Source: Chthoniobacteraceae bacterium
GTDB taxonomy: Bacteria; Verrucomicrobiota; Verrucomicrobiia; Chthoniobacterales; Chthoniobacteraceae
DNA length: 64,000 nt
Direction: 5' to 3'
NCBI GenBank assembly: GCA_947476045.1
Contig: CANJNZ010000003.1
Span: 44,931-108,930, forward strand
Part shown: piece after piece, positions 32,986 to 47,515 of the stretch
Layout of the letters: the number at the start of each line of letters is the position of its first letter
Numbering within the stretch: position 1 is the stretch's first letter
Program-made: the position numbers and the translations under genes
The notes under the pieces: model-generated
The model's input: the letters and a program-made list of their open reading frames with translations, nothing else
Told to the model about the DNA's origin: nothing
Database searches by the model: none

Positions 32986-33572
32986 ATCACACCTTCCCCG
33001 TTCGCACTGTCCGACTACCCGTGATTTTTGAGAAGGGTGTATTCACCCTGCTCGACGGAAAGGCATTGCCAGCATTGCGCAATGGAATAATCGGAGATTT
33101 AATAGTAGACGCGGTCGACCTGGTGAACGAGAAGGATCGCGAGGAATGGACGAAAGAGAAGGTTGTGCCCTTTCTCCCATGCGGAACAGTCTTGTGGGCG
33201 AGCGTGAAGCAGGACGATGTGCCGCGCGAAATGCAAAAGCACGTTGTCGTAAAACTAGAACGACCCAGAGTGCCCATCCACGTCGTCGGCTTCGCGCTGA
33301 CCGCGGACCTCGAACTCGTGCTGCGTGCGGGGAAGAAGGCCGCCCTGACTCCGTGCCCGTGTCACATCGCCTCGCTCGATCTTGCGGTTCAAAGCGTGAA
33401 CGAGGCGTATGCAAAGATTTCCGTCGCCTTCGAGCCGAGCCGCCGTTCGCACACGGGCAACGTGTTCTTGCGCGTCTTCTACGAGGACAACGACTGCGTG
33501 CGCCGACTCGATGATTTGCGAGAGCGCGTGGAACTAAAAGGCGCGGGAGACCAAGACCGACCCAAGCAATGA
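32982..33572 (+). CDS. unknown protein (196 aa) coupled to drmA
   Basis: ATGA overlaps at both ends (32982-32985 and 33569-33572). Confidence 0.7.
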   Translation: MNHTFPVRTVRLPVIFEKGVFTLLDGKALPALRNGIIGDLIVDAVDLVNEKDREEWTKEKVVPFLPCGTVLWASVKQDDVPREMQKHVVVKLERPRVPIHVVGFALTADLELVLRAGKKAALTPCPCHIASLDLAVQSVNEAYAKISVAFEPSRRSHTGNVFLRVFYEDNDCVRRLDDLRERVELKGAGDQDRPKQ

Positions 33573-36500
33573 ACACGAACCCAAGCGCGCAAAATTCGAC
33601 TGAAATGCGGACTGAGCTTGTCGAAGCTCTTCGACTCGATCTCGTGGGGCCGGACAACACGCACGCGTTCGCCAAGGAACTGCTACCGGAGCCGCCGTCG
33701 CGTTGGTATCTCACGGGCTTTCTCGTGCCATGCGATGCGCCGCTGGCGCAAAAGACCGACCCGACCGCAGAGGACGAGATGGACGGGGCCGATGACAGCG
33801 GAGCCAGCGATGACGGAGTCGCACCCGATCGCGGCGCAGCGAGGCGCAGCATCCTACCGAGTTCACTGGGCGTGAGCGTGCTCGTAGCCGCGGGCGTCGA
33901 GCGAGTTGAAGCCATCGTGGAGTGGGGCGACTACGTGTGGGAAAGCCCGGACACGGAACCTGCCGAGGATGGTTCGCCAGCGGAAGCGCCGCCCGGCGAG
34001 GAAGCGTCCGCCTTGGTCGCCGAGGAACCACCGGCCAGCGCGCTTAAGATTCCCAAGGGCTACCGGCGCGATCCGCGCGAGGAGCGCGTGACTTTTGACC
34101 TGCCCGCACCCGGCGCGAAGCCGAAGGAATTCGTGGTGCCGAAAAGCGGCGGGCTGACGCTGCATGTGACCGTCCGTGCCGTGACGGCAATGACGACGCG
34201 ACTGCCCGCTGGCACGCGATCGATGTCCGTCTTCCTTGTGAATCGCCGACCGGCGCAGAAGCACCGCTATCGGAGCTTCGCTTTCCAAGCCACGTTGCGA
34301 CTGAAATGCGAGAAGCCGTTTGTGCCGCGCCCGGATTTGCGCGGCCCGACGGGCGGATCGCTCACGGATGAGTGGGATGAAAAGGTTGCCGATCTTCAGT
34401 ATCGCGATGTCTTCGAGTATGCCTGCGGGCATGGCGTCGCAGCGGAGGCGCCGTGTGGCGACGGGCATTGCCGCGAGGTCTGGACGACATGGATTCCCGC
34501 TGCCGAGGTCGAGCGCGTCGCACCCGCTCCGCTCGGCGGGATCGAATTGAAAATGGAGGCGCTCGGCGCGCTCACTGACGGTGCAGATGCCGCCGCTAAG
34601 CTCGGCGGACTCGTGGACCAATACCGCGTGTGGATCGGCAGTCAGCGTGGCGGGTTGAGCGGACTCGAAACTACGCAGGACAAGACCGCGCGCGACCTGC
34701 TCGGCCTGGCGGAATTTGCCGCCGACCGCATCGCAGCTGGCATCGCTGCGCTCGCAGATCCGCAAGTGCTCGAAGCCTTCCGCATCGCCAATCGCACGAT
34801 GGCCCGCGCGGCCCGCCAGCGTGACGCCGCTGCAAAGGACGTGACGCCAAATGCAGTGGACGCGCCGGCGTGGCGACCATTCCAGCTTGCGTTCATTTTG
34901 CTCACGCTGCGGAGCATCATCGAGCCGACGCACAACGACCGCGAACGCGTGGACCTGCTCTTTTTCCCCACGGGCGGCGGCAAGACGGAGGCGTATCTCG
35001 GCCTCGCGGCCTTCACGATGGTGTTGCGCCGACTGCGGCATCCCGGCCTGCGCGGCGCGGGCATGAGCGTGCTCATGCGCTACACGCTGCGGCTGCTGAC
35101 GCTCGACCAACTCGGACGCGCTGCCACGCTCATCTGCGCGCTGGAGTTGGAACGCGAGCAGAGCGGCGGCGCGCTCGGCGACTGGCAGTTTGAAATCGGC
35201 CTCTGGGTCGGTTCCGCGGCCACGCCGAATCGGATGGGGCATCGTGGCTATGAGGGGCCGGGCAAGGACGCGACAGCTTACATCAAGACGCAGCAGTTCA
35301 AGCGCAACAGCAAGCGCTACCCCGCGCCCATTCCCCTCGAGAACTGTCCGTGGTGCGGCACCAAATTCGATGCGAACTCGTTCCGCCTCGTGCCGAACGA
35401 TAAGAACCCGCTCGACCTGCGCGTGCATTGCGTGAATCACCAGTGCGACTTCGCCGGTGACCGTCCGCTGCCGATTCTTTCCGTGGACGAACCGATTTAC
35501 CGGCGGCTTCCGGCGTTCCTCATCGCGACCGTGGACAAGTTCGCCGCGCTGCCGTGGACGGGGCCGAGTGGCAAGCTCTTCGGCTTCGTGGACAGCGCGG
35601 ACAAAAACGGCTTCTACGGCCCGTGTGACAAGCAAACTGGTGTCGCGCTCGGCGGCCCGCTGCCACCACCGGAGTTGATCATTCAAGACGAGCTGCATCT
35701 CATTTCCGGCCCGCTCGGCACCATTGCCGGCGTGTATGAAACGGCGATTGACTGGCTCTCAAGCCGCCAGTCGGGCGAACACTGCTTGCGTCCGAAAATC
35801 ATCGCCAGCACTGCCACGGTGCGCCGCGCCGACCGGCAGATTCGTGCGCTCTTCGAGCGGCAACAGGTGGACATTTTTCCACCGCCTGGGCCGGACCGGC
35901 GCGATTCGTTTTTTGCGATAACGGTGCCGTCGTCCAAGTCGCCCGCGCGGCTCTACGTGGGCGTCGCGGCGCAGGGGCGCAGCTTGAAGGTGGTGCTGCT
36001 GCGCGCCAGCCTCGCGCTGCTCAGCCGCGGCGAGACGCTCTACGCTGCGGCAGGCGGAAAGAAGAATCACGACAACCCGGCCGATCCTTACATGACGCTG
36101 CTCGGCTATTTCAACAGCCTGCGCGAACTAGGTGGCAGCCGGCGCATCGTCGAGGACGAGGTGAGCAATCGGCTCGCACAGTATGCTCGACGGCGACGGC
36201 GCGAACCGGCTGAAGCGCTGTTTTCCGACCGGCAGATTGCGGAACCGCTGGAGCTGACATCCCGAGTGGCGACGAACGAAGTCGCGACCGCGAAACGGCG
36301 GCTGGCGGAACGTTTTGATTCCGGCGAGCGCGTGGACGTTGCGTTGGCGACAAACATGATTTCCGTGGGTCTCGACATCGTGCGCCTCGGTTTGATGGTC
36401 GTGCTCGGGCAGCCCAAGACGAGTGCGGAATACATTCAGGCGACCAGCCGTGTAGGCCGCGACCCTGAGCGCCCCGGCCTCGTGGTCACGTTACTGAACA

Positions 36501-37063
36501 TCCACAAGCCCCGCGACCGTTCGCACTACGAGCGTTTCGGCACTTACCACGCGACGTTTTATCGCGCCGTCGAAGCGACAAGCGTGACGCCATTTTCTCC
36601 GCGTGCGCTCGACCGCGCGCTCGCCGCTGCGCTGGTCGCGCTTTGCCGGCAGGGCCGCGCGGAACTGACGCCCGCGCTCGGCGCGAGTGAGATTTTGCGA
36701 ATGCGAACGCAACTCACGGATTTCGCCCTACGATTCGCAGCGCGTGCGGAGAATCACCGCAACGATTGGGCGAACGCCGCCGAGCGTCAGCTTCTCCGCG
36801 ACCATGTTTTGAATCGCGTGAACAGCCTGCTCGATGACTGGTTCACCATCGCGCAGGAATACGCGGCAACGAACACACGCCTCCAATATCAGCTGCACGA
36901 GGCAAGTCCCGCAAAGCGTCTGCTCTACGAATTCCTGCACCCAGACGTTCCTAACTTGAATGCGAAGCAGCGAAACTTCCGCGCGAACCGTTCGATGCGG
37001 GATGTTGAAACCAGCGTCGAGCTTGAGGTGAAACCGCTGCACGAATGGGGAGGCGGGAGATGA
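33569..37063 (+). CDS. drmA: DISARM helicase DrmA
   Basis: LLFFPTGGGKTEAYLGLAAF, CPWCGTKFD zinc finger, LIIQDELHLISGPLGTIAGVYE, IIASTATVRRA, ATSRVGRDPERPGLVVTLLN. Confidence 0.92.
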   Translation: MNTNPSAQNSTEMRTELVEALRLDLVGPDNTHAFAKELLPEPPSRWYLTGFLVPCDAPLAQKTDPTAEDEMDGADDSGASDDGVAPDRGAARRSILPSSLGVSVLVAAGVERVEAIVEWGDYVWESPDTEPAEDGSPAEAPPGEEASALVAEEPPASALKIPKGYRRDPREERVTFDLPAPGAKPKEFVVPKSGGLTLHVTVRAVTAMTTRLPAGTRSMSVFLVNRRPAQKHRYRSFAFQATLRLKCEKPFVPRPDLRGPTGGSLTDEWDEKVADLQYRDVFEYACGHGVAAEAPCGDGHCREVWTTWIPAAEVERVAPAPLGGIELKMEALGALTDGADAAAKLGGLVDQYRVWIGSQRGGLSGLETTQDKTARDLLGLAEFAADRIAAGIAALADPQVLEAFRIANRTMARAARQRDAAAKDVTPNAVDAPAWRPFQLAFILLTLRSIIEPTHNDRERVDLLFFPTGGGKTEAYLGLAAFTMVLRRLRHPGLRGAGMSVLMRYTLRLLTLDQLGRAATLICALELEREQSGGALGDWQFEIGLWVGSAATPNRMGHRGYEGPGKDATAYIKTQQFKRNSKRYPAPIPLENCPWCGTKFDANSFRLVPNDKNPLDLRVHCVNHQCDFAGDRPLPILSVDEPIYRRLPAFLIATVDKFAALPWTGPSGKLFGFVDSADKNGFYGPCDKQTGVALGGPLPPPELIIQDELHLISGPLGTIAGVYETAIDWLSSRQSGEHCLRPKIIASTATVRRADRQIRALFERQQVDIFPPPGPDRRDSFFAITVPSSKSPARLYVGVAAQGRSLKVVLLRASLALLSRGETLYAAAGGKKNHDNPADPYMTLLGYFNSLRELGGSRRIVEDEVSNRLAQYARRRRREPAEALFSDRQIAEPLELTSRVATNEVATAKRRLAERFDSGERVDVALATNMISVGLDIVRLGLMVVLGQPKTSAEYIQATSRVGRDPERPGLVVTLLNIHKPRDRSHYERFGTYHATFYRAVEATSVTPFSPRALDRALAAALVALCRQGRAELTPALGASEILRMRTQLTDFALRFAARAENHRNDWANAAERQLLRDHVLNRVNSLLDDWFTIAQEYAATNTRLQYQLHEASPAKRLLYEFLHPDVPNLNAKQRNFRANRSMRDVETSVELEVKPLHEWGGGR

Positions 37064-38853
37064 GCACTCCGAAGCTTCGCAGCAGTCAGGTCATCACGAC
37101 ATTCGGGCCAGGCTCGATGGTGGATTTGCCCGATGCTTCCGTGCTCATCGCCGGGCTGGATCACTGGAAGTATGAAGCGGGCCGCACGCCGCGCATCGAG
37201 GAACCGCGGCTCGTGCAGAAGCTGATGTTGCTGCTTGGTAAACCGGCGCTCGAACTTCGCCCGCCGCCGCCCGCCGCCGAGCAGGAGCACGGATTCCATC
37301 CGAACATTTGCGCGTGGCGTTTTCCGAACTGGTTCATCGTGCAGCACACCGTCATCACCAAGCTGGGCTTTCGCCGCCGTCGGTTGGTGCATGTGAATTC
37401 CCTCGATGGCGGAACCTGGCGCGATGAAACCCGGCAAAAACAGTCGGTCGTGCCCGTGCGTTTTGTCCGAGCCTGTCGTAAGGGCCATCTCGGCGACATC
37501 GAGTGGAAGGCGTTTGTTCATGGACACGGCGAACCATGCGGACGCGACCTGTGGATCGAGGAACGCGGGACGACCGGCGACTTGAACGAAGTGTGGATCG
37601 TTTGCGACTGCGGCAAGGAACGCCCGATGAGTCAGGCTGCCCGCTGGGAATTGCGTGCGCTTGGTCACTGCGATGGGGCGCGTCCGTGGCTGGGAGCGGG
37701 CACCAAGGAATCATGTGGCGAAAACAATCGCCTGCTGATCCGCAGCGCGAGCAACGCTTACTTTCCTCAACTCATGTCGGTCATCTCGATTCCCGATACG
37801 CGCAGCGCGCTGGATGAAGTGATTCGCTCGCTCTGGGCCGACTTTCTCTCCGATGTCGAAACGCCCGAGGAACTCGCGAAAGTTCGCAAGAAACCGACGC
37901 CCGCGGTGAAGCTGCAAGGTCTCGACGATGCGGCGGTTCTTGCAGCGATGGCGCGGATTCGTGACGGGGGCGACGCCTCGCTGCGTCCGGTGAAGGAGGT
38001 CGAGTTTGAGGCGCTCGCCGATGCGCGGGATGAACTCGGCAGCGACACGCCCGAGGGAGATTTCTTTGCACGCGCACTGCCGCGCGAACGATGGGATGCC
38101 GAGTGGATGAAGGCTGTCGATCGTGTGGTGCTCGTTCATCGTCTGCGCGAGGTTGTCGCGCAGGTTGGTTTCACTCGATTCGAGGCCGCTGGGCCAGACA
38201 CGCAGGGAGAACTGGAGCTGGATGTTCAGCGAGCTGCGATTGGCGTTGATGCGTCGTGGGTGCCGGCGGTGGAAAATCGCGGAGAGGGCATCTTTCTTGT
38301 CTTCAATGCGGCAACGATCCAGCAGTGGAGCCAGCGCGATGCGGTGCGCAACAGGGCGCGTGCTCTCGATGCCGGTTTTGCGATTTGGAAAAAGGAACAC
38401 GAAGGCAGCAAACGAGAGTTTCCCGGAATTCCGTATTTTCTCCTTCACTCCATCTCGCATCTGCTGCTGACCGCCATCTCGCTGGAATGTGGCTATCCCG
38501 CCTCGTCGCTCCGCGAGCGCATTTACGCCGCACCAGGTCGCTACGGCATCCTCATCTACACCGGCTCGTCTGATGCAGAAGGCACGCTCGGCGGCCTTGT
38601 GCTCGCCGGCCGTGACATCCGTGAGCACTTCCGCCGCGCGCTGGAACTCGGGAAGCTCTGCTCGAATGATCCTGTCTGCGCGCATCATGTGCCTGTGGAT
38701 CACGACCATCAACCACTGCTCGGAAGCGCCTGCCACGGCTGTCTCCTCGTCGCGGAAACGTCGTGCGAGCAACGCAACGATTTCCTCGACCGCGCTTTTG
38801 TCGTTCCGACTGTGGAATCGCTGGGCGCGGAGTTCTTCACGGGGATCGTTTGA
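37060..38853 (+). CDS. drmB: DISARM DUF1998 protein DrmB
   Basis: LRSSQVITTFGPGSMVDLPDASVLIAGLDHW; DUF1998 features LLHSISHLLLTAISLECGYPASSLRERIY...GTLGGLV...ACHGCLLVAETSCEQRN; ATGA overlap with drmA. Confidence 0.92.
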   Translation: MSTPKLRSSQVITTFGPGSMVDLPDASVLIAGLDHWKYEAGRTPRIEEPRLVQKLMLLLGKPALELRPPPPAAEQEHGFHPNICAWRFPNWFIVQHTVITKLGFRRRRLVHVNSLDGGTWRDETRQKQSVVPVRFVRACRKGHLGDIEWKAFVHGHGEPCGRDLWIEERGTTGDLNEVWIVCDCGKERPMSQAARWELRALGHCDGARPWLGAGTKESCGENNRLLIRSASNAYFPQLMSVISIPDTRSALDEVIRSLWADFLSDVETPEELAKVRKKPTPAVKLQGLDDAAVLAAMARIRDGGDASLRPVKEVEFEALADARDELGSDTPEGDFFARALPRERWDAEWMKAVDRVVLVHRLREVVAQVGFTRFEAAGPDTQGELELDVQRAAIGVDASWVPAVENRGEGIFLVFNAATIQQWSQRDAVRNRARALDAGFAIWKKEHEGSKREFPGIPYFLLHSISHLLLTAISLECGYPASSLRERIYAAPGRYGILIYTGSSDAEGTLGGLVLAGRDIREHFRRALELGKLCSNDPVCAHHVPVDHDHQPLLGSACHGCLLVAETSCEQRNDFLDRAFVVPTVESLGAEFFTGIV

Positions 38854-39644
38854 TGTTCGAGCCGCTCACAGAACTGCCGACGGCCGCGCTCAAATCGCTT
38901 GCGTCGTCGTTACGGCAGGGTGTTCTCGCGCGTGGCTCAAGCGATGCGGCGCTCAATCAAATAGCCGGGCCTCTCGCGGCAAGGGTGTGCGTCTGTCTGG
39001 ATGGGCTGGCTGCGCAAGGACTGACACCTGTTCAGACATCGCTGATCGTCGAAGCAGTGCTCGCGGAGCGCGTCAACGCTCCGGATCTTGCTGCGTTGTT
39101 CGATGTGGTTCTTTCCGGCCCCGAAATTTCCGGCGCGCCTACTGCCGATACCGGCGCCGCCATTGTCGGGTTGATTCAGGAAGCCCAACACGAGGTCGTG
39201 CTTGTCACCTATGTCTTGCACAACACGGAACAGATTTTCGGAGAAGTCGTGCAACGCTTGAAGCACTGCCCCAATCTCGCGGTGAAACTGTTCGTCCATA
39301 TCGCGCGACCGACAGGCGATACATCGCTGGAGAGCGAAATTGTGCGTCGCTTTGCAGCCGATTTCCGCAAACGTCATTGGCCTTGGTCAAATCCACCGAG
39401 CCTCTATTTCGATCCTCGTGGCTTGGCACAATCTGCCACCGAGCGGGCGAGTCTTCACGCAAAATGCGTCGTCGTTGATCGGCGCGCGGCACTCATCACC
39501 TCCGCAAATTTCACCGAAGCTGCGCGCACCAAGAACATCGAACTCGGCATAGTGACGCGGCACCCGCCCCTCGCACGACGGATAGCTGAACACTTCGACG
39601 CGTTGGTTGCAGCAGGCACACTGGAACAATGTGTTTTGTCCTGA
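38853..39644 (+). CDS. drmC: DISARM phospholipase D-like protein DrmC
   Basis: Single HxK motif SLHAKCVVVDRRAALITSANFTEAARTKNIELG; TGATG overlap with drmB stop. Confidence 0.9.
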   Translation: MFEPLTELPTAALKSLASSLRQGVLARGSSDAALNQIAGPLAARVCVCLDGLAAQGLTPVQTSLIVEAVLAERVNAPDLAALFDVVLSGPEISGAPTADTGAAIVGLIQEAQHEVVLVTYVLHNTEQIFGEVVQRLKHCPNLAVKLFVHIARPTGDTSLESEIVRRFAADFRKRHWPWSNPPSLYFDPRGLAQSATERASLHAKCVVVDRRAALITSANFTEAARTKNIELGIVTRHPPLARRIAEHFDALVAAGTLEQCVLS

Positions 39645-39691: not shown

Positions 39692-39898
39692 TCAGATGAG
39701 CCGCGCGTTGGTGAACATCCTGCGGGCCTCGACGAGGGTGTAGCCCATGTTTGTGAGGAAGCGCAGCACCTCGGAATTGTCAGCACAGATAGGCACGGAG
39801 GGATCAGGTCGATGGGAGAGCAGCGGCATATTCACCATGGCATCGTATCCGGGGAATCTGCGGATGAACTTCTGCTTTTGGTGCCTGGATCGTTTCAC
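39692..39898 (-). CDS. small hypothetical protein
   Basis: 68 aa ORF; 4-nt overlap with the upstream 39895..40134 ORF. Confidence 0.35.
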   Translation of the reverse strand: MKRSRHQKQKFIRRFPGYDAMVNMPLLSHRPDPSVPICADNSEVLRFLTNMGYTLVEARRMFTNARLI

Positions 39899-40173
39899 GG
39901 TTTTGGTTTTCTGATGGGTTTGCTCACAGCAGTAAACGCCTTTGCACCCTTACCATTTTGAAGCAGGGCGGTGGTTTCTGCACCCTCTCTGCACCGCATG
40001 AAAATAGTATCAGAATATCGCATTAATACGCTGGAACAACTCCTCGCCCGGTTGAAATGCCGGATGAGCGACATCTTTAACAATTCTAGGCGTTTCACCC
40101 AGAGAGAACTTGTTCGGCTATCGGCCACGAACATTGCGCTCGCACTGGAGGGTGTCTAATTTTCGGGTGCCAT

Positions 40174-40662
40174 ATGAAATTCACCATCGAGAAAAAAGCC
40201 CTGACCCGGCTGTTGAGAGCGATTGGCAGCGATCCTGCAAAAAAGTCGCACGATTCCGTTCTCCGACTGGCCGCACAGGACGGACAAATTATTCTCAACG
40301 CTTACGAAACCGAAGCGGGTTGCGAAGCCCTTGTGCTCGAAGAAGGTGTCTGTTTCTTCCGCATAGATCAGTTCCTCCCTATCGTGCGCAGCTACAAGTC
40401 GGCAAAAAATCTCACCATCGAAGTCACGCCCGACGGCATCCAAATCGGCAACACGAAAATCGGTCGAGAGCACTGGGAGGTGTCGCTTTTCGATAACCCT
40501 CGCACCGCGCCGATTACTGTTCCGAATCTTGAAAAAAGGTTGAATCAGTTGGCGGCAAAAGAAATAGCCGAAGCCCAGCCAATACCATTTTTTAACTCAG
40601 AAACAGCGGCGGAGACGTGGTTCACTGCTTCATTTTGGAAAACGCCGTGTGCGTCGGATTGA
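40174..40662 (+). CDS. single-domain sliding-clamp (DnaN N-terminal)-like protein
   Basis: MKFTIEKKALTRLLRAIGSDP...SVLRLAAQDGQIILNAYETEAGCEALVLEEGVCFFRIDQFLPIVRSYKSAKNLTIEVTPDGIQIGNTKI parallels DnaN domain I order (MKFTVEREHLLKPLQ...LLLQV.DGTLSLTGTDLE...VPARKFFDICRGL). Confidence 0.5.
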   Translation: MKFTIEKKALTRLLRAIGSDPAKKSHDSVLRLAAQDGQIILNAYETEAGCEALVLEEGVCFFRIDQFLPIVRSYKSAKNLTIEVTPDGIQIGNTKIGREHWEVSLFDNPRTAPITVPNLEKRLNQLAAKEIAEAQPIPFFNSETAAETWFTASFWKTPCASD

Positions 40663-40674
40663 AGACGCGAGCAA

Positions 40675-42072
40675 CTATGAGGTTTCCACTGCCGCCCCTG
40701 AAAGCAGAGTTCCGTTTTCTTCCAATAGATGTCCGCCGAGATCCGGTTGTCCCCGGAAGTCGCGGATTGGATAATTGGAACAGGGCTGCCCGCAATCCAA
40801 GCTCTCCTTCAATCGCAGCCACATTTTGTAGTGCTGGGCAGATACAGGCGCATGAGCCAGCAAAGTGGTTGCGATGTCCTTCCAGCCTTGACGCAGGGCC
40901 ATCCCGGCGGCGTTGAGGAAATAGGCTGCATCCTGCGGACTTTGGTCGCAGGCGCTCAGGAGGCATGCGAGTCCCTCTTTCGGTTGCCCTAGGTTTTCGA
41001 GGCAATGTCCCCGGATTTGCGTCAAGAGCGGGTGAGTGCGCCAGCAATCAGGAAGTGAATCGAGGATCTCCAGCGCGGTTTCAGGATCGCTTTTGTGAAG
41101 CAGGTGAGCGTGGCTCTGTTTCGAGAAGAAGTTTCGGTCTGAATCAATCATCCGCGAACATTCTTCAATCAGCGGAGCGAGTTCTTTGAGCGCTGCAAAA
41201 TCCCTGATTCGATACGGGTCGTTTGCCAGCGCCCACATGACGTGATGACGCACTGCACACAAGTCTCCGCGCTGCCATGTGGCCAGTGCGTATTGTGGCT
41301 GGGCATTGAGCACATGGTCCCACGCTATGCGGCGCGCACAATCGAAGTTATGCTGATTTGAAAACACTTCGCTTCGCGCCCAATTTTCAAACTGTTCGGC
41401 GAGTTTTGAAAAGGCCGGTGCTTTGCGGTAGTCGAGCACATAGGCTTCCCCATCGAGATCGAAACGCATGACGGCGCGCAGTTCGTCCGGCAAAGCGCTG
41501 TAATTGGCGGGATCGAGGGTCCATTTTGTGCCCGGCTCAGGCCGCCATTCACGCAGCGTATCGAACTCGCTCTCGTTGAGCCGGTGCGCTGTCTCCAATT
41601 CAAAATCCCCCTCAGCAAGTTTTGCCCACAGCATTTTGATGTCGCCATCGGTCCACGTCTTTTCCCTGTCGGAGCGAAAGGCCGGAAGGCTGATCAGCAG
41701 GTGGCGCACAGCCTCGTCGCTGTCACCCGCAGCCGAGAGAAAACATGCGAGTTGATAGGTTTTCCAAGAATTGCGCCTGTCTTCCCCCAATCTGATCAAC
41801 AAGGATGCGGCTTCCGAGGATTGCCCAAGATGGCGCAGTGCGAGAGCCGTGTGTTCATAGAGATGTGGGCACTCGAAGCCGCGCGCCAGAAGCTCTTTTC
41901 CGAGCGAGGCGGCGAGAGGGAAATTCGCTTCTTTGTAAGCGAGCTCTACGAGCAATGGGCGGAAAACCTCTTCATTGTAATCCGTGCGGAGGGCTTCCAG
42001 CACCAGTTCGCGGGCTTCTTCGATCATGCCAAGCGCTACATAGGCGTGGCTTTGTTCCAATAGGCTGTTCAT
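40675..42072 (-). CDS. TPR-repeat protein
   Basis: 465 aa, helical TPR-like units (HAYVALGMIEEARELVLEALRTDY; HTALALRHLGQSSEAASLLIRLGED). Confidence 0.65.
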   Translation of the reverse strand: MNSLLEQSHAYVALGMIEEARELVLEALRTDYNEEVFRPLLVELAYKEANFPLAASLGKELLARGFECPHLYEHTALALRHLGQSSEAASLLIRLGEDRRNSWKTYQLACFLSAAGDSDEAVRHLLISLPAFRSDREKTWTDGDIKMLWAKLAEGDFELETAHRLNESEFDTLREWRPEPGTKWTLDPANYSALPDELRAVMRFDLDGEAYVLDYRKAPAFSKLAEQFENWARSEVFSNQHNFDCARRIAWDHVLNAQPQYALATWQRGDLCAVRHHVMWALANDPYRIRDFAALKELAPLIEECSRMIDSDRNFFSKQSHAHLLHKSDPETALEILDSLPDCWRTHPLLTQIRGHCLENLGQPKEGLACLLSACDQSPQDAAYFLNAAGMALRQGWKDIATTLLAHAPVSAQHYKMWLRLKESLDCGQPCSNYPIRDFRGQPDLGGHLLEENGTLLSGAAVETS

Positions 42073-42668
42073 ATTAAGCCTCTACGGAGGCCACCTGTTT
42101 CCGTCAGCGGATTTTCCTGAGTATCTTCATCGAGCCAGCGCAGGCACAAACGCCGCCGAATCGCAGGGTCCGGCGTGAGCGACATCCAATCGCGCTCTTC
42201 TACCGTGGCTGGATTGGCTATAAAGAAGTCAAGTTCGTGCGCGCCGCAGTAACCATCGCCTACGACGACACAGTCCTCACCGAATGAATACCATAGCGAA
42301 CGCAGTTCTTCGGCTGAGCATCCGGGCGAACGCTGCTCTTCGAGCGAATCGCGAGTGCGCCGTCTGGCATACTCACGAGCCAGTTCACGCGTAGCAAAGC
42401 CGTCCACTTCGATCTCTTCCTCCTCGTCCATGTAGTGGAACATATCGAGAACACGGACATAAAAGTTTCCAGGGCGCCACTTGGGCTTTGCCGCCTCGGC
42501 AGCGGCATAAGCGGCAATTGCTGCATCCAACATCGCGCAGTCCGTCGGCGCGAAGTTCCGCCGGCAATAAAGGCAGTCGGTGCGTATCCTCGGGCGCACT
42601 TTTTTTACATCAAATGCGCGTGAGCAGAAGATGCATTCGACATGCTCCAACTCGCCGGGCGCATTCAT
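42069..42668 (-). CDS. zinc-ribbon hypothetical protein
   Basis: VECIFCSRAFDVKKVRPRIRTDCLYCRRNF; ATGA overlap with the TPR gene. Confidence 0.6.
   Translation of the reverse strand: MNAPGELEHVECIFCSRAFDVKKVRPRIRTDCLYCRRNFAPTDCAMLDAAIAAYAAAEAAKPKWRPGNFYVRVLDMFHYMDEEEEIEVDGFATRELAREYARRRTRDSLEEQRSPGCSAEELRSLWYSFGEDCVVVGDGYCGAHELDFFIANPATVEERDWMSLTPDPAIRRRLCLRWLDEDTQENPLTETGGLRRGLI
42083..42110 (-). promoter_or_regulatory. shared element copy 1: CCGCTGACG-N16-GTA
   Basis: CCGCTGACGGAAACAGGTGGCCTCCGTA then 10 nt to the ATG of the TPR gene (42072). Confidence 0.7.
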
Positions 42669-43714
42669 GATGCCGCCTCCCCGATTCCAAGCGGCTTTGA
42701 TTCCACCCACGCGAATTTTTCGAGATTCACTTCGCTTTCACCATCCCAGCGGTAGGCGGCAAGCAGACCGCCGGTCTTGCTCGCGACGCTGTAATCCACG
42801 CACACCGCATTCTTCGCGAGCAGGCTCGGCGCAGCGGGCGGTAGCCAGTAGTGACCGAAGACCACCAGCGGCTCATCTTCCGCGTAGTGTGAAAGTCCAG
42901 CGAGCAACTCGGCAGGAACTTCGATGGGAGGCGGCTCTTCGCTCGCTGGAAAAACCAGTTCTCGATACGTGACGCTTTCCCTATGACGGAGACCGAACCA
43001 TCGCGCACGGATGTCCTCGTGAGCGTGCCCCTCTTTATCGGTGAAATCGATGCCTGTCGGCAACAGGGTTTCGGGTCCGTTGAGCAGTGTTTTTACGGCG
43101 GCGTTCTCCGGGGTGCCTTCCGTGCTGGCCGCGAGAAGGAATGCGTCATCCGCAAAGCGACGCTCGCCTACCGTTGCCGTTGCCTTTTTGCACCAGGCCG
43201 CGTGGACAATGCGCACTCCACCGAGGTCGAGATAAAGCGGCACCGTCTTGAACCATGCGAGCCAGTCTTTCCACTCTTCGGGGTGGGGAACGGCAATTTG
43301 TTCCAGCGTGGCGCTGTGTTGCTTTTCGTTTTTGGCAGTGTGCGGGCGAAGCGGGGCTCCATCAGGGCCGCAGGTGTGGTAGCGCAGAGCGTTCCACTCG
43401 TGATTGCCGAGCACCGCAAATGCGTTGCCGCTGTCGGTCATTGCCCGGACAGTTTTCAGCGTTTCGAGAATCTTTGGACCGCGATCTATGAAGTCGCCGA
43501 CGAAAATCACCTTTCGATCCGCAGGATGCCGCCAGATTCCATTGACCTTTTCGTAGTCGAGTTTGTGAAGCAGGGCGTCGAGCGCATCCGCGTGTCCGTG
43601 GATGTCTCCGATGATGTCGTATTTGGTGTGGTTTGTTTTCATAAATTCTGTGCGGCACTCGGTGCCCGCAATCCTGCCACCGGCGTTTTTTGGAGCCTCG
43701 GGTCGAGTGTTCAT
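42665..43714 (-). CDS. calcineurin-like metallophosphoesterase (PrpE / ApaH-like)
   Basis: YDIIGDIHGHADAL, VIFVGDFIDRGP, AVLGNHEWNAL. Start 43714 chosen because the shared upstream element sits 14 nt before it (alternative start 43642). Confidence 0.85.
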   Translation of the reverse strand: MNTRPEAPKNAGGRIAGTECRTEFMKTNHTKYDIIGDIHGHADALDALLHKLDYEKVNGIWRHPADRKVIFVGDFIDRGPKILETLKTVRAMTDSGNAFAVLGNHEWNALRYHTCGPDGAPLRPHTAKNEKQHSATLEQIAVPHPEEWKDWLAWFKTVPLYLDLGGVRIVHAAWCKKATATVGERRFADDAFLLAASTEGTPENAAVKTLLNGPETLLPTGIDFTDKEGHAHEDIRARWFGLRHRESVTYRELVFPASEEPPPIEVPAELLAGLSHYAEDEPLVVFGHYWLPPAAPSLLAKNAVCVDYSVASKTGGLLAAYRWDGESEVNLEKFAWVESKPLGIGEAAS

Positions 43715-43728
43715 CTGCAATATACCCT

Positions 43729-43756
43729 TACGTTTTGGGTGCCGTGGCGTCAGCGG
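43729..43756 (-). promoter_or_regulatory. shared element copy 2: CCGCTGACG-N16-GTA
   Basis: CCGCTGACGCCACGGCACCCAAAACGTA then 14 nt to ATG 43714 (phosphoesterase). Confidence 0.7.
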
Positions 43757-43883
43757 GTTCCTGCAAGCAGGGAGAGGTTTTTCCGGGATGTGAAAACCTG
43801 CGCCGGCGTCTGGCTTGTTGCGGTTTGGTTTTCTTTCTTTCATGCCGCGAAACTAGCCGGCGTCTGAAAACTTGCAAAGTGTT

Positions 43884-43914
43884 ATGACTGTATATAGCCT
43901 TACTGCACAGTCAT
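43884..43914. promoter_or_regulatory. 8-bp inverted repeat ATGACTGT-N15-ACAGTCAT, probable LysR operator
   Basis: Read directly; overlaps the start of the LysR-type ORF. Confidence 0.55.
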
Positions 43915-44812
43915 GTATCAATCCATCCTCTCGCAATCGGGGTTTTCAATGGAACGGCTCGGCAATTTCTGTTCCGTGGCGGATGCGGGATCGATTGTTG
44001 GCGCGGCCAAAGGCGACACGGTCCGGCAGTCACTCATCAGCCGGCAGATCCGCGAGCTGGAATCCTTCTTCGGCGTGGAACTGATTCGCAGACGGGGGCG
44101 CGGATTGGAACTTACCGATGCCGGACGCGAGCTCGCCGCCGTGGGGCGCGAGAATTTCAAGGGACTTGCCGACTACGCTGCGCGGTGCCGTGGTGCCGCG
44201 TGGACGGTGCGAATGGTCGCGTCCAATAGCGTCGCCACCTGGTTGCTGCTGCCACGGCTCAAGTCGCTGGAAAAAACAAACGCGAACGTGCGCTATGAAA
44301 TCCACCATGAGCAGACCCGCGAGATCGTCACCGCCACACGAGAGGGAATCTATGACATCGCATTCGTCCGCAAAGACGCCCTCGGGGCGGGATTAAGGCA
44401 CGCCACCCTCGGTGAAATCGGACACTCCCTGCTGGTCCCGAAAGCTCTTTTGCGAGCCAAGCCCCAAGATATAGCAACAGTGCTGGGAACGGTGCCGATG
44501 GCGCTGCCGGTGGGTGGAAAAATGCGCGAGACCATCGAGAAAATGGCCGAGAAGGCCAAGGTGAGGATGAATGTTGCCGTGGGATGCTCCTCCTACTTGC
44601 AGGCGGCGCAAGTGCTTCAATCCGGCATGTGCGCAGCGGTGCTCCCCGACACCGCATTGTGCGACATGAAAACCTCTAGTCTCCATCGTCTGCCATTACG
44701 CGAACGCTACACGCTGTGCCTCGCATGGAGCGCACGAAATGCCGACACCCGTCCGGCCCTCGCAGAACTCATTCAGCAAATGGCCGACAAGATGAAATGG
44801 GACGACTGTTGA
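43913..44812 (+). CDS. LysR-type transcriptional regulator
   Basis: N-terminal HTH ERLGNFCSVADAGSIVGAAKGDTVRQSLISRQIRELESFFGVELIRRRGRGLELTDAGREL. Confidence 0.88.
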   Translation: MYQSILSQSGFSMERLGNFCSVADAGSIVGAAKGDTVRQSLISRQIRELESFFGVELIRRRGRGLELTDAGRELAAVGRENFKGLADYAARCRGAAWTVRMVASNSVATWLLLPRLKSLEKTNANVRYEIHHEQTREIVTATREGIYDIAFVRKDALGAGLRHATLGEIGHSLLVPKALLRAKPQDIATVLGTVPMALPVGGKMRETIEKMAEKAKVRMNVAVGCSSYLQAAQVLQSGMCAAVLPDTALCDMKTSSLHRLPLRERYTLCLAWSARNADTRPALAELIQQMADKMKWDDC

Positions 44813-44831
44813 GCAGACGGCTTTGCTCAAC
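44808..44831 (+). terminator. 8-bp hairpin GTTGAGCA-N8-TGCTCAAC at end of LysR gene
   Basis: Perfect inverted repeat overlapping the stop codon; no strong T-tract. Confidence 0.4.
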
Positions 44832-44852
44832 GGCTGTGTATTTTCGAGATAT

Positions 44853-44880
44853 CCGCTGACGCAGAGCAGACTGATCCGTA
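44853..44880 (+). promoter_or_regulatory. shared element copy 3: CCGCTGACG-N16-GTA
   Basis: CCGCTGACGCAGAGCAGACTGATCCGTA then 11 nt to ATG 44892. Confidence 0.7.
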
Positions 44881-44891
44881 TCGGATGGTAT

Positions 44892-45089
44892 ATGTCGCGC
44901 AGACCAATGGTAATCGGAATCGAAATGGCGGAATTCATGGCGGGGGTGCCGCTCTTGGAGGACGAAAAAAGGGAAATTCTCCGGCTGTCACAAATCCAGC
45001 TACAAGCGGAAAAGGCAAAGGAGGAATTGGTGAACCTGATCAAATTGCGGGCGGCGATAGCGACTGCGCCGCATTGCGAGCGGAACTAA
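44892..45089 (+). CDS. small hypothetical protein (65 aa)
   Basis: MSRRPMVIGIEMAEFMAGVPLLEDEKREILRLSQIQLQAEKAKEELVNLIKLRAAIATAPHCERN; start supported by position relative to the shared element. Confidence 0.5.
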   Translation: MSRRPMVIGIEMAEFMAGVPLLEDEKREILRLSQIQLQAEKAKEELVNLIKLRAAIATAPHCERN

Positions 45090-45128
45090 CGGAATCGATC
45101 AAAGAAACAACGTAAGAGCGGCAATAAT

Positions 45129-45156
45129 CCGCTGACGAAGTCCGGTTGCTACCGTA
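45129..45156 (+). promoter_or_regulatory. shared element copy 4: CCGCTGACG-N16-GTA
   Basis: CCGCTGACGAAGTCCGGTTGCTACCGTA then 11 nt to ATG 45168. Confidence 0.7.
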
Positions 45157-45167
45157 TAGTATAGGTG

Positions 45168-45401
45168 ATGAGACACGACCACGAAATGACGCCGGAAATG
45201 CTCGCCCGGAGCAAGGACGAGAACGGGAAGCCCTACGGGAAATGCCCGATAACGGGGCGACCGGTGGACAAGAACGGATTCTCAATCAGGCCGGTGCGCC
45301 CAAGGGTAGTGCGGAGCGTGCCGAGGCCGGACTTCGCGGGGAATATGGTGAGGGCGGTGAAGGCTCACGCAGCGGACAGGATAGCGCGGGGCGGGCGCTA
45401 A
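45168..45401 (+). CDS. small hypothetical protein (77 aa)
   Basis: MRHDHEMTPEMLARSKDENGKPYGKCPITGRPVDKNGFSIRP...; preferred over the overlapping 45146..45601 frame because of the shared element spacing. Confidence 0.5.
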   Translation: MRHDHEMTPEMLARSKDENGKPYGKCPITGRPVDKNGFSIRPVRPRVVRSVPRPDFAGNMVRAVKAHAADRIARGGR

Positions 45402-45466
45402 GGACGCGCCTCGGGATCGAAGGACTCGCGACCAGCACGGAGCGGATCGACATTTTCGCAAATAAT

Positions 45467-45494
45467 CCGCTGACGGAGACGCCGGCGAAAAGTA
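45467..45494 (+). promoter_or_regulatory. shared element copy 5: CCGCTGACG-N16-GTA
   Basis: CCGCTGACGGAGACGCCGGCGAAAAGTA then 9 nt to ATG 45504. Confidence 0.7.
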
Positions 45495-45503
45495 AAGGAA
45501 CCC

Positions 45504-45845
45504 ATGAGCAAACCACAAAACCCACCACCAGCGCCAAACCACGACGAAACAAACCGGCTATTGGCGACAATTATGCAGAACTATTCTTGGACGGCCTTTA
45601 AGCCAATCCTGTATTCACCGGACAAACTCCGGGCGTGGATTCTGGAAAAGCTGACACCGGATCCGGAGGATCTGGAACTGCACCCGGACGACCCGAGAGT
45701 GGCGGAAATGTCGGAATCAAACGTGGAGAACGAGGATCAGGCGGGGGAGTTTTGGGGGGAACTGACCAAGGAGGAACAGGAAATGTTTCGAGCGGCGTTC
45801 GTGGAGATTTGGGGCAGAGCGGGGAAAGCAGCCCTGCCGTCATAG
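45504..45845 (+). CDS. hypothetical protein (113 aa)
   Basis: MSKPQNPPPAPNHDETNRLLATIMQNYSWTAFKPILYSPDKLRAWILEKL...; downstream of element copy 5. Confidence 0.6.
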   Translation: MSKPQNPPPAPNHDETNRLLATIMQNYSWTAFKPILYSPDKLRAWILEKLTPDPEDLELHPDDPRVAEMSESNVENEDQAGEFWGELTKEEQEMFRAAFVEIWGRAGKAALPS

Positions 45846-45973
45846 ACCGCAGGAGGCCGTCGTTCGCCCTCCTCGTGGCAGTTTCGCAGGTTTTGCAGGT
45901 CACTTCCGTGAAAGATTCTGCGATTCACAATTTGAAGCGTGCTCCGAATCAAGGCGGCTATTTCGGCAAAAAT

Positions 45974-46001
45974 CCGCTGACGAGTTGCAAGCACGAACGT
46001 A
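45974..46001 (+). promoter_or_regulatory. shared element copy 6: CCGCTGACG-N16-GTA
   Basis: CCGCTGACGAGTTGCAAGCACGAACGTA then 14 nt to ATG 46016. Confidence 0.7.
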
Positions 46002-46015
46002 TGTAGTCGCTAAAT

Positions 46016-46561
46016 ATGAATACTCAAAGACCTGACTCATGCGGCACAGTTGTCTTCAACCACGGTAAGGAGAGCGGGCCTCGGGGAGGTAAGATCACGA
46101 AACTTGCCGGGGTCGCAAAAGAGTGCGGATTCGCAGTGGAGAGCATTGATTACCAAGACCTGCCGGATGCCGACCCGAGGGTAGAACGGCTACTCCAATC
46201 CGAGGCCGGAAAAGCGAAGGGGCTGATTCTGGTCGGCTCCAGCATGGGCGGCTACGTTGCAACTGTGGCTTCGTCCATCTTGAAGCCCGATGGGCTTTTT
46301 CTGATTGCGCCAGCCTTTTACATCCCCGGCTACCCCGAGCAAAACCCCATCCCAAATGCGAGAGCAGTGAGCGTTGTCCACGGTTGGAGCGACGAAGTGA
46401 TCCCAGTGGAGCACAGCATTCGATTTACCCGGAAGTTCAGTGCGACGACGCGCATGGAGTTGCATCTAATCGAGGACGATCACCGGATTTCCGCTGAGTT
46501 GGAATTCGTGGCGACGCTGTTCGAGCGTTTCCTGAAACGCTTTCGTGCTTCCAATTTGTAG
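46016..46561 (+). CDS. alpha/beta-hydrolase (YqiA/RBBP9-like)
   Basis: VVFNHGKESGPRGGK, ILVGSSMGGYVATVAS (GxSxG), VVHGWSDEVIPVEHS, LIEDDHRI. Confidence 0.82.
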   Translation: MNTQRPDSCGTVVFNHGKESGPRGGKITKLAGVAKECGFAVESIDYQDLPDADPRVERLLQSEAGKAKGLILVGSSMGGYVATVASSILKPDGLFLIAPAFYIPGYPEQNPIPNARAVSVVHGWSDEVIPVEHSIRFTRKFSATTRMELHLIEDDHRISAELEFVATLFERFLKRFRASNL

Positions 46562-46958
46562 CTCCTCCTCAAAAAAAACTGCGGAATTGCGAAACGGAAT
46601 TCTTGTTCCGAAAAGCACACTCGATCGGCCACTCAATAAGCAAGGCGGGGAGTTACTCTCGCATTCACGTGCGCGAGGGTTAGCATTCTGCCGCACCCGC
46701 GCCTATAAATTCAATCTGCATACCAAGGCTGGTCAGTTCCCGTTTCTTCTTGTCCATAGAAACGGTGAACTGCTTCTCGTAATCCTGTCGTGAGGGATGT
46801 TCACTCTGGCGGAGTTGTGATTGGAACTGTTCCTTCCGATCCTCTGCATCCGACATATTTGAAGCGGACGATGAATATCTGGACTTTGGCGGAAGTGGTC
46901 TTACCTATGGTCTTACCTTACTCATAATTAAACCGTAAATACCTGATAATCAGATAAG

Positions 46959-47359
46959 TGGAGGCGAGGGGAGTTGAACCCCTGTCCTGGCTGACATCCT
47001 CACAAGCTTCTACATGCTTAGCACCGTCATTGCTTTAGCCCCTGCGCCGCGAACGGGCACGCTGCGCAAGGCCGATTGTCCACGGGTTCTCTCATCCGCA
47101 GCGGCGGCCAATCCCGCTACGAACCAGCCTCTGGTATTGACTCCCGGCGTAGAGGCGTCTGCCGGAAACCACTGGTCCGTTGAAGGACACTCCCGCAGTT
47201 TAGGCTGCGAGGGCGAACTGAGGCTCGAAAGCGTCAGTTGCATCGACAACATTGCTGTTGGCGTTTGTGTTGTTTGCCCAGAGGATTTAACGCGGCCAAC
47301 CAGGCTTCCGCGGCATGCGACCGGTGTTTCAATCAGTCAGTCGAAACCAGTGCGCCCCC
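46959..47359 (-). ncRNA. ssrA: transfer-messenger RNA
   Basis: 5' GGGGGCGCACTGGTTTCGACTG; 3' GGGGTTCAACTCCCCTCGCCTCCA; acceptor arms pair; tag frame ...ANSNVVDATDAFEPQFALAA followed by TAA. Confidence 0.93.
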
Positions 47360-47515
47360 TTTTTGGGGTGCAAGGAAAGTAACCACCTCCCCCGTTTTGG
47401 CAAGGACTCAGAATTACCGGGCACGGCTGTGTGTTTGCGATGTCATGAAAAGCTCTTTGCTGTGCACACAGTTTCATCGCATTGTTTCCTCACCAATTTC
47501 ACCCGACTCTGAACG

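Follow-up and report, generated by a model that had tools for sequence, protein, structure and literature searches.

A promoter-like 28-nucleotide element at a near-constant distance from the start codons of unrelated accessory genes in a Chthoniobacteraceae bacterium

Phage morons are autonomous units of promoter, gene and terminator, and most promoters of extracytoplasmic function (ECF) sigma factors have an AAC core in their -35 region. The ECF41 promoter reads TGTCACA-N16-CGTC (PMC3426412). Other phyla are known to have leaderless genes in which a TANNNT -10 adjoins the start codon (PMC12340547, PMC3898074). Here we describe an element of 28 nucleotides (nt) that has something in common with all of these. 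It is present in six copies next to the tmRNA (transfer-messenger RNA) gene in a 64-kb stretch of Chthoniobacteraceae DNA (64,000 nt, hereafter the window), each time ahead of a different gene. We argue that it may well be a promoter whose transcripts would begin at or close to the start codon.

The six copies were located in an initial annotation, and their coordinates and strands (Table 1) proved exact. All six have the 9-mer CCGCTGACG and, after a gap of exactly 16 nt, GTA, which is part of CGTA in five copies and of AGTA in element 5. The next in-frame ATG follows GTA after 10, 14, 11, 11, 9 and 14 nt in elements 1 to 6, within the annotated range of 9-14 nt. The downstream genes are, as had been claimed, unrelated (Pfam search): they encode a TPR protein, a calcineurin-like phosphoesterase, proteins of 65, 77 and 113 aa and an alpha/beta hydrolase. 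Together with the presence of copies on both strands, this rules out tandem gene duplication. The window contains six occurrences of the 9-mer, each within an element, against 1.33 expected and a maximum of 4 in 100 shuffles, and the full motif (9-mer, 16 nt, GTA) matches six times against 0.00 in shuffles. The observation of a six-copy element is thus confirmed.

An exact scan of the whole genome (G000, 4.37 Mb) gives eight matches, namely the six window copies, a real copy on contig C27 and a match on contig C22 that lies inside a long open reading frame and is due to chance. A relaxed scan adds one further real copy, on contig C71. Since the matches are few and mostly the six already known, the motif is clustered and has no regulon-wide spread. 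With eight true copies in the genome, six of them at one locus, the idea of a genome-wide dedicated regulon is not supported; its companion, an array of unrelated accessory genes with one promoter each, is what survives.

A search with the LysR-type regulator gene of the window led to homologous loci in G001, G002, G005 and G008, four further genomes of the genus. Genomes of this genus are fragmented, and several contigs stop inside the repeated LysR gene. Four genomes together supplied 19 copies of the element: eight in G000, four on contig C385 and one on C689 in G005, one on C111 in G001 and five on C7 in G009. The ortholog of element 1 has a diverged spacer (G005:C385, L184:1496), and orthologous variants of elements 2, 3 and 5 read CCGATGACG (L184:438), CGGATGACG (L223:12063) and CCGGTGACG (L223:11300). 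Among the genomes searched the element is restricted to the genus. The strict motif was not found outside it among 213 genomes of the order, and a search of public genomes for the motif preceded by AAT gave no second cluster and no correctly spaced start codon among the matches listed, several of which are, by inspection, ribosomal RNA or coding sequence.

When the 19 copies are aligned, the consensus is an A-tract (-6 to -2), CCGCTGACG, N15, CGTA, W, G/A and G. The N15 spacer between TGACG and CGTA has no length variation (19/19), and CGTA is present in 18 of the 19. At TGACG and CGTA every base is fixed or almost fixed; spacer bases carry 0.1-0.9 bit. Identity between nine pairs of related copies is 88% in the -35 9-mer, 97% in CGTA, 59% in the spacer and 32% in the upstream flank. 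This pattern, two contact zones around a spacer free of constraint, fits what a sigma factor needs. On a weight matrix all 19 copies score at least 21 bits and every other site in 454 kb at most 13.4, a gap that is partly by construction because the matrix was built from these same copies.

The element always stands in sense orientation upstream of an ATG, whichever strand is used, and CGTA and the ATG are 9-15 nt apart in 18 copies; in the remaining one the distance is 19 nt. The mode is 11, which places the TA of CGTA at -13/-12 relative to the ATG. We compared this with 285 other genes of the genus, which come from the loci retrieved for this analysis and are not a random sample. Upstream of these genes TANNNT has a modest peak (7 at -12 and 3 at -13, against 1.2 per position) that coincides with the TA position set by the element; Shine-Dalgarno cores are in weak excess.

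What might such an element be? The reading that we favour, with a probability of about 0.6, is that it is an alternative sigma-type promoter which would give accessory single-gene units mRNAs with no leader or almost none. Two short zones rigidly spaced, the upstream A-tract and the near-constant distance to the ATG point to a sigma-70-family promoter of ECF-like geometry. The A-tract would be UP-like, CCGCTGACG would be the -35 and CGTAWGG the -10, with exactly N15 between TGACG and CGTA. With TA as the -12/-11 pair of the -10, transcription would start at the ATG or within a few nt of it, so that the mRNA would be leaderless or nearly so; the initial annotation had taken the distance to mean that leaders would be absent or very short, and the start codons do lie that close. 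Each copy would drive one accessory gene, or one gene with a coupled neighbour, under a putative sigma factor presumably responding to some physiological signal. Gene and promoter may spread jointly, as moron-like units, both in the hypervariable tmRNA-adjacent locus and within a sister species' integrative element.

Several observations weigh against this promoter reading. Each genome has few copies. The -10 is without the final T of the housekeeping TATAAT, and the -35 has TGACG where most ECF promoters have their AAC core. Among the downstream genes there is no sigma factor gene (most were covered by Pfam search, the rest by homology or reading). Purine-rich, Shine-Dalgarno-like bases stand directly behind CGTA in about half of the copies, and several copies have none; the mean energy of pairing with the anti-Shine-Dalgarno sequence is -4.1 there, against -2.5 to -2.9 in random sequence. 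Such purines count against a leaderless start because a transcript starting at the ATG would exclude them.

How does the element compare with the systems mentioned at the outset? Like ECF promoters it is bipartite, with rigid spacing (15-17 nt in those promoters, N15 in all 19 copies here), a CGT(C/A)-type -10 and few targets. Unlike them it has a -35 GCTGACG instead of TGTCACA or a GGAAC-like sequence (three of seven bases agree with ECF41 TGTCACA) and no linked sigma gene, and the genes that it would serve are accessory, unrelated to one another and located on a mobile locus. Without the usual -35 core and a linked sigma gene the ECF label is not earned; of the ECF-type promoter proposed in the initial annotation, the bipartite, promoter-like build and the fixed spacing remain. 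The TANNNT leaderless promoters of Deinococcus-Thermus and mycobacteria (PMC12340547, PMC3898074) also have the -10 TA 12-13 nt before the ATG, and a Shine-Dalgarno sequence would be little needed in either case. In contrast to them, the element has a sequence-specific -35, carries CGTAWGG for TANNNT and serves only a few accessory genes. The resemblance to phage morons is that a promoter-like element accompanies each single accessory gene as it moves, and that the neighbours of such a unit are unrelated. Unlike morons, the window array is outside any recognised phage genome, one promoter type is used in all units and terminators are putative; the candidate, a palindrome AAACGTCC.GACGTTT at the stop codon, belongs to one unit type only.

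Movement of genes together with the element can be followed across genomes. A 54-aa gene unit on G000:C71 and G001:C111 is 91% identical across 231 bp between unrelated flanks. The shared block starts ~17 nt ahead of the element and ends one base past the stop codon and, as expected of a moron-like unit, keeps gene and promoter-like element together. Homology of the TPR unit likewise begins at the A-tract ahead of the element. An element precedes the TPR gene both in the window and in G005:C385, but none does in G001 and G006, where the gene overlaps the phosphoesterase gene upstream of it. The phosphoesterase gene has one in G000 and G005:C385, and the element is absent upstream in G001, G002 and G008. 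A homolog of the alpha/beta hydrolase gene in G005:C484 has a GGAGG Shine-Dalgarno sequence instead. These comparisons show that gene and element usually travel together and that genes can acquire or lose the element. The copies on G009:C7 (L223 3573-12246) sit in an integrative element, with tyrosine integrase, primase-like and AAA ATPase proteins encoded upstream of them. The same stretch contains an open frame of 847 aa that shares its DNA with four or five small genes lying in other frames and on the opposite strand.

A bolder suggestion can be made as well. A strict, genus-specific leaderless promoter read by a novel sigma factor could act as a portable expression tag: any gene inserted behind the element in an accessory locus would become part of the regulon, and such genes may recombine at the element itself. 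We offer this tentatively, as an unlikely extension.

Because unit borders are sharp, the main rival is that the element is a recombination site, or the boundary of an integron-like single-gene cassette system with a putative recombinase, expression being secondary. The borders of the 231-bp unit between unrelated flanks and the start of TPR-unit homology at the A-tract agree with this, as do the location of elements between consecutive genes, like cassette borders, and an imperfect, weak dyad of ACGG-N13-CCGT half-sites within the element. However, the spacer varies freely where strand exchange would require identity, no repeat is present at the 3' ends of units, no recombinase gene is seen beside the array in the window, and a tight distance to the ATG would be unexpected of such a site; we consider this explanation unlikely. 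Terminal inverted repeats or pairing between 5' and 3' ends of units were also considered and rejected, since 1 of 17 units shows them (alpha/beta hydrolase, p=0.01) and the rest do no better than cross pairs.

An integron proper can be rejected. Integron cassettes also form arrays of small unrelated open reading frames with a short repeated element between them, but here the element lies 5' of a start codon and is not attC, units occur in both orientations and there is no integrase nearby. No attC (RYYYAAC...GTTRRRY hairpin) was found in window 40000-47500, and the attC sites of integrons in the genus are different and 115-124 nt long. The integron integrases of G000 are only on other contigs (C95, C38), none adjoining the array. 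The cassette idea of the annotation thus holds loosely, in that gene and element move together, and fails for integrons. G004:C117 (L242 3986-8119) carries an integron in which several attC sites (GCCTAACGACCCCAAGCTCAGCGAC...GTTCGCTGCAGCGCATGGTTAGGC) lie next to an integron integrase over the cut-off.

LysR boxes have the form T-N11-A. The element is unlike them, which bears on the possibility that it is an operator by which a dimeric regulator (LysR or other) controls an ordinary promoter. The dyad would suit an operator, and a LysR gene lies between the two arms of the array. However, no close LysR homolog was found in G009 despite its five elements, G002 has LysR homologs without nearby elements, and the stretch from element to ATG shows no separate promoter of ordinary form. 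An operator is, in our opinion, distinctly unlikely, and LysR control of the elements is disfavoured; the regulator is a conserved neighbour of the array whose action on the elements is putative. In G001 and G008 (L183, L186; window counterpart 42665-44812) a divergent phosphoesterase/LysR module is repeated two to three times per contig with truncated LysR copies, marking a rearrangement hot spot. The G001 array also encodes a histidine phosphatase fused to an IrrE-like metallopeptidase domain (L183 1297-2763).

It is extremely improbable that the motif reflects a peptide (N-P-L-T-x5-R) conserved in upstream proteins, in their C-terminal tails or in polyprotein linkers: NPLT-x5-R is in frame in most copies and several upstream open reading frames extend through the motif, but third codon positions are near-invariant (G 19/19, G 18/19, G 18/19, T 19/19), variation falls on first positions (CCG/TCG/ACG, CTG/ATG/GTG) with synonymous variants almost absent, several copies run into stops at once and two are antisense to the surrounding frame. 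With third positions fixed and first positions variable, the element is a DNA motif. An RNA hairpin around it was rejected too, the spacer having no shared complementarity and a perfect stem occurring, by eye, only in the two identical G009 copies.

As to the genes themselves, start codons were read from the sequence, with backing from homology where a homolog exists. The core of the phosphoesterase begins ~75 nt inside the frame (MKTNH..., 43641), so that the ATG behind element 2 adds an in-frame N-terminal extension. The 65-aa protein has no match in Pfam or PHROG, the 77-aa and 113-aa proteins have no Pfam match over the cut-off, and the latter was not found in phage records. No duplicate of the tmRNA attachment site exists in the window. 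Directly left of the array are the consecutive DISARM core genes drmA, drmB and drmC (33569-39644; PADLOC E-values 7e-278, 3e-80 and 1e-63), and ~110 bp at 39800-39912 recur at 89% identity on contigs C6, C64 and C111 of the same genome. A second short repeat, TTTTCNGAAATCTTGCGCGGTCNGGTTGACC, flanks the TPR gene on both sides in G005:C497 (L227:703-742 and 2739-2777) and is also found at a contig end in G008 (L186:4514-4548); ahead of the TPR start it contains TGACC-N15-CGTT, with the geometry of the main element.

Table 1. Elements and genes of the array, in window coordinates
Feature	Position	Strand	Description or evidence
Element 1	42083..42110	-	exact motif; upstream of TPR gene
Element 2	43729..43756	-	exact motif; upstream of phosphoesterase with N-terminal extension
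Element 3	44853..44880	+	exact motif; upstream of 65-aa protein gene
Element 4	45129..45156	+	exact motif; upstream of 77-aa protein gene
Element 5	45467..45494	+	exact motif, AGTA variant; upstream of 113-aa protein gene
Element 6	45974..46001	+	exact motif; upstream of alpha/beta hydrolase gene
TPR protein gene, 465 aa	40675..42072	-	Pfam TPR_14 over cut-off
Calcineurin-like phosphoesterase gene, from ATG 14 nt behind element 2	42665..43714	-	Pfam PF00149
LysR-type regulator gene, between leftward and rightward elements	43913..44812	+	Pfam PF00126/PF03466
65-aa protein gene	44892..45089	+	homolog in L223
77-aa protein gene	45168..45401	+	open reading frame
113-aa protein gene	45504..45845	+	68% identical homolog behind element in G009:C7
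Alpha/beta hydrolase gene	46016..46561	+	Pfam PF12146
tmRNA gene, borders array	46956..47359	-	ARAGORN and Rfam RF00023

The element offers a simple, sequence-based way to look for accessory single-gene units, some of them possibly involved in defence, and lets the joint movement of a regulatory sequence and genes be put to the test. If it is a promoter, one short signal in this genus places unrelated, horizontally moving genes under common control, and a class of leaderless promoters would thereby be defined in a lineage with little promoter data.

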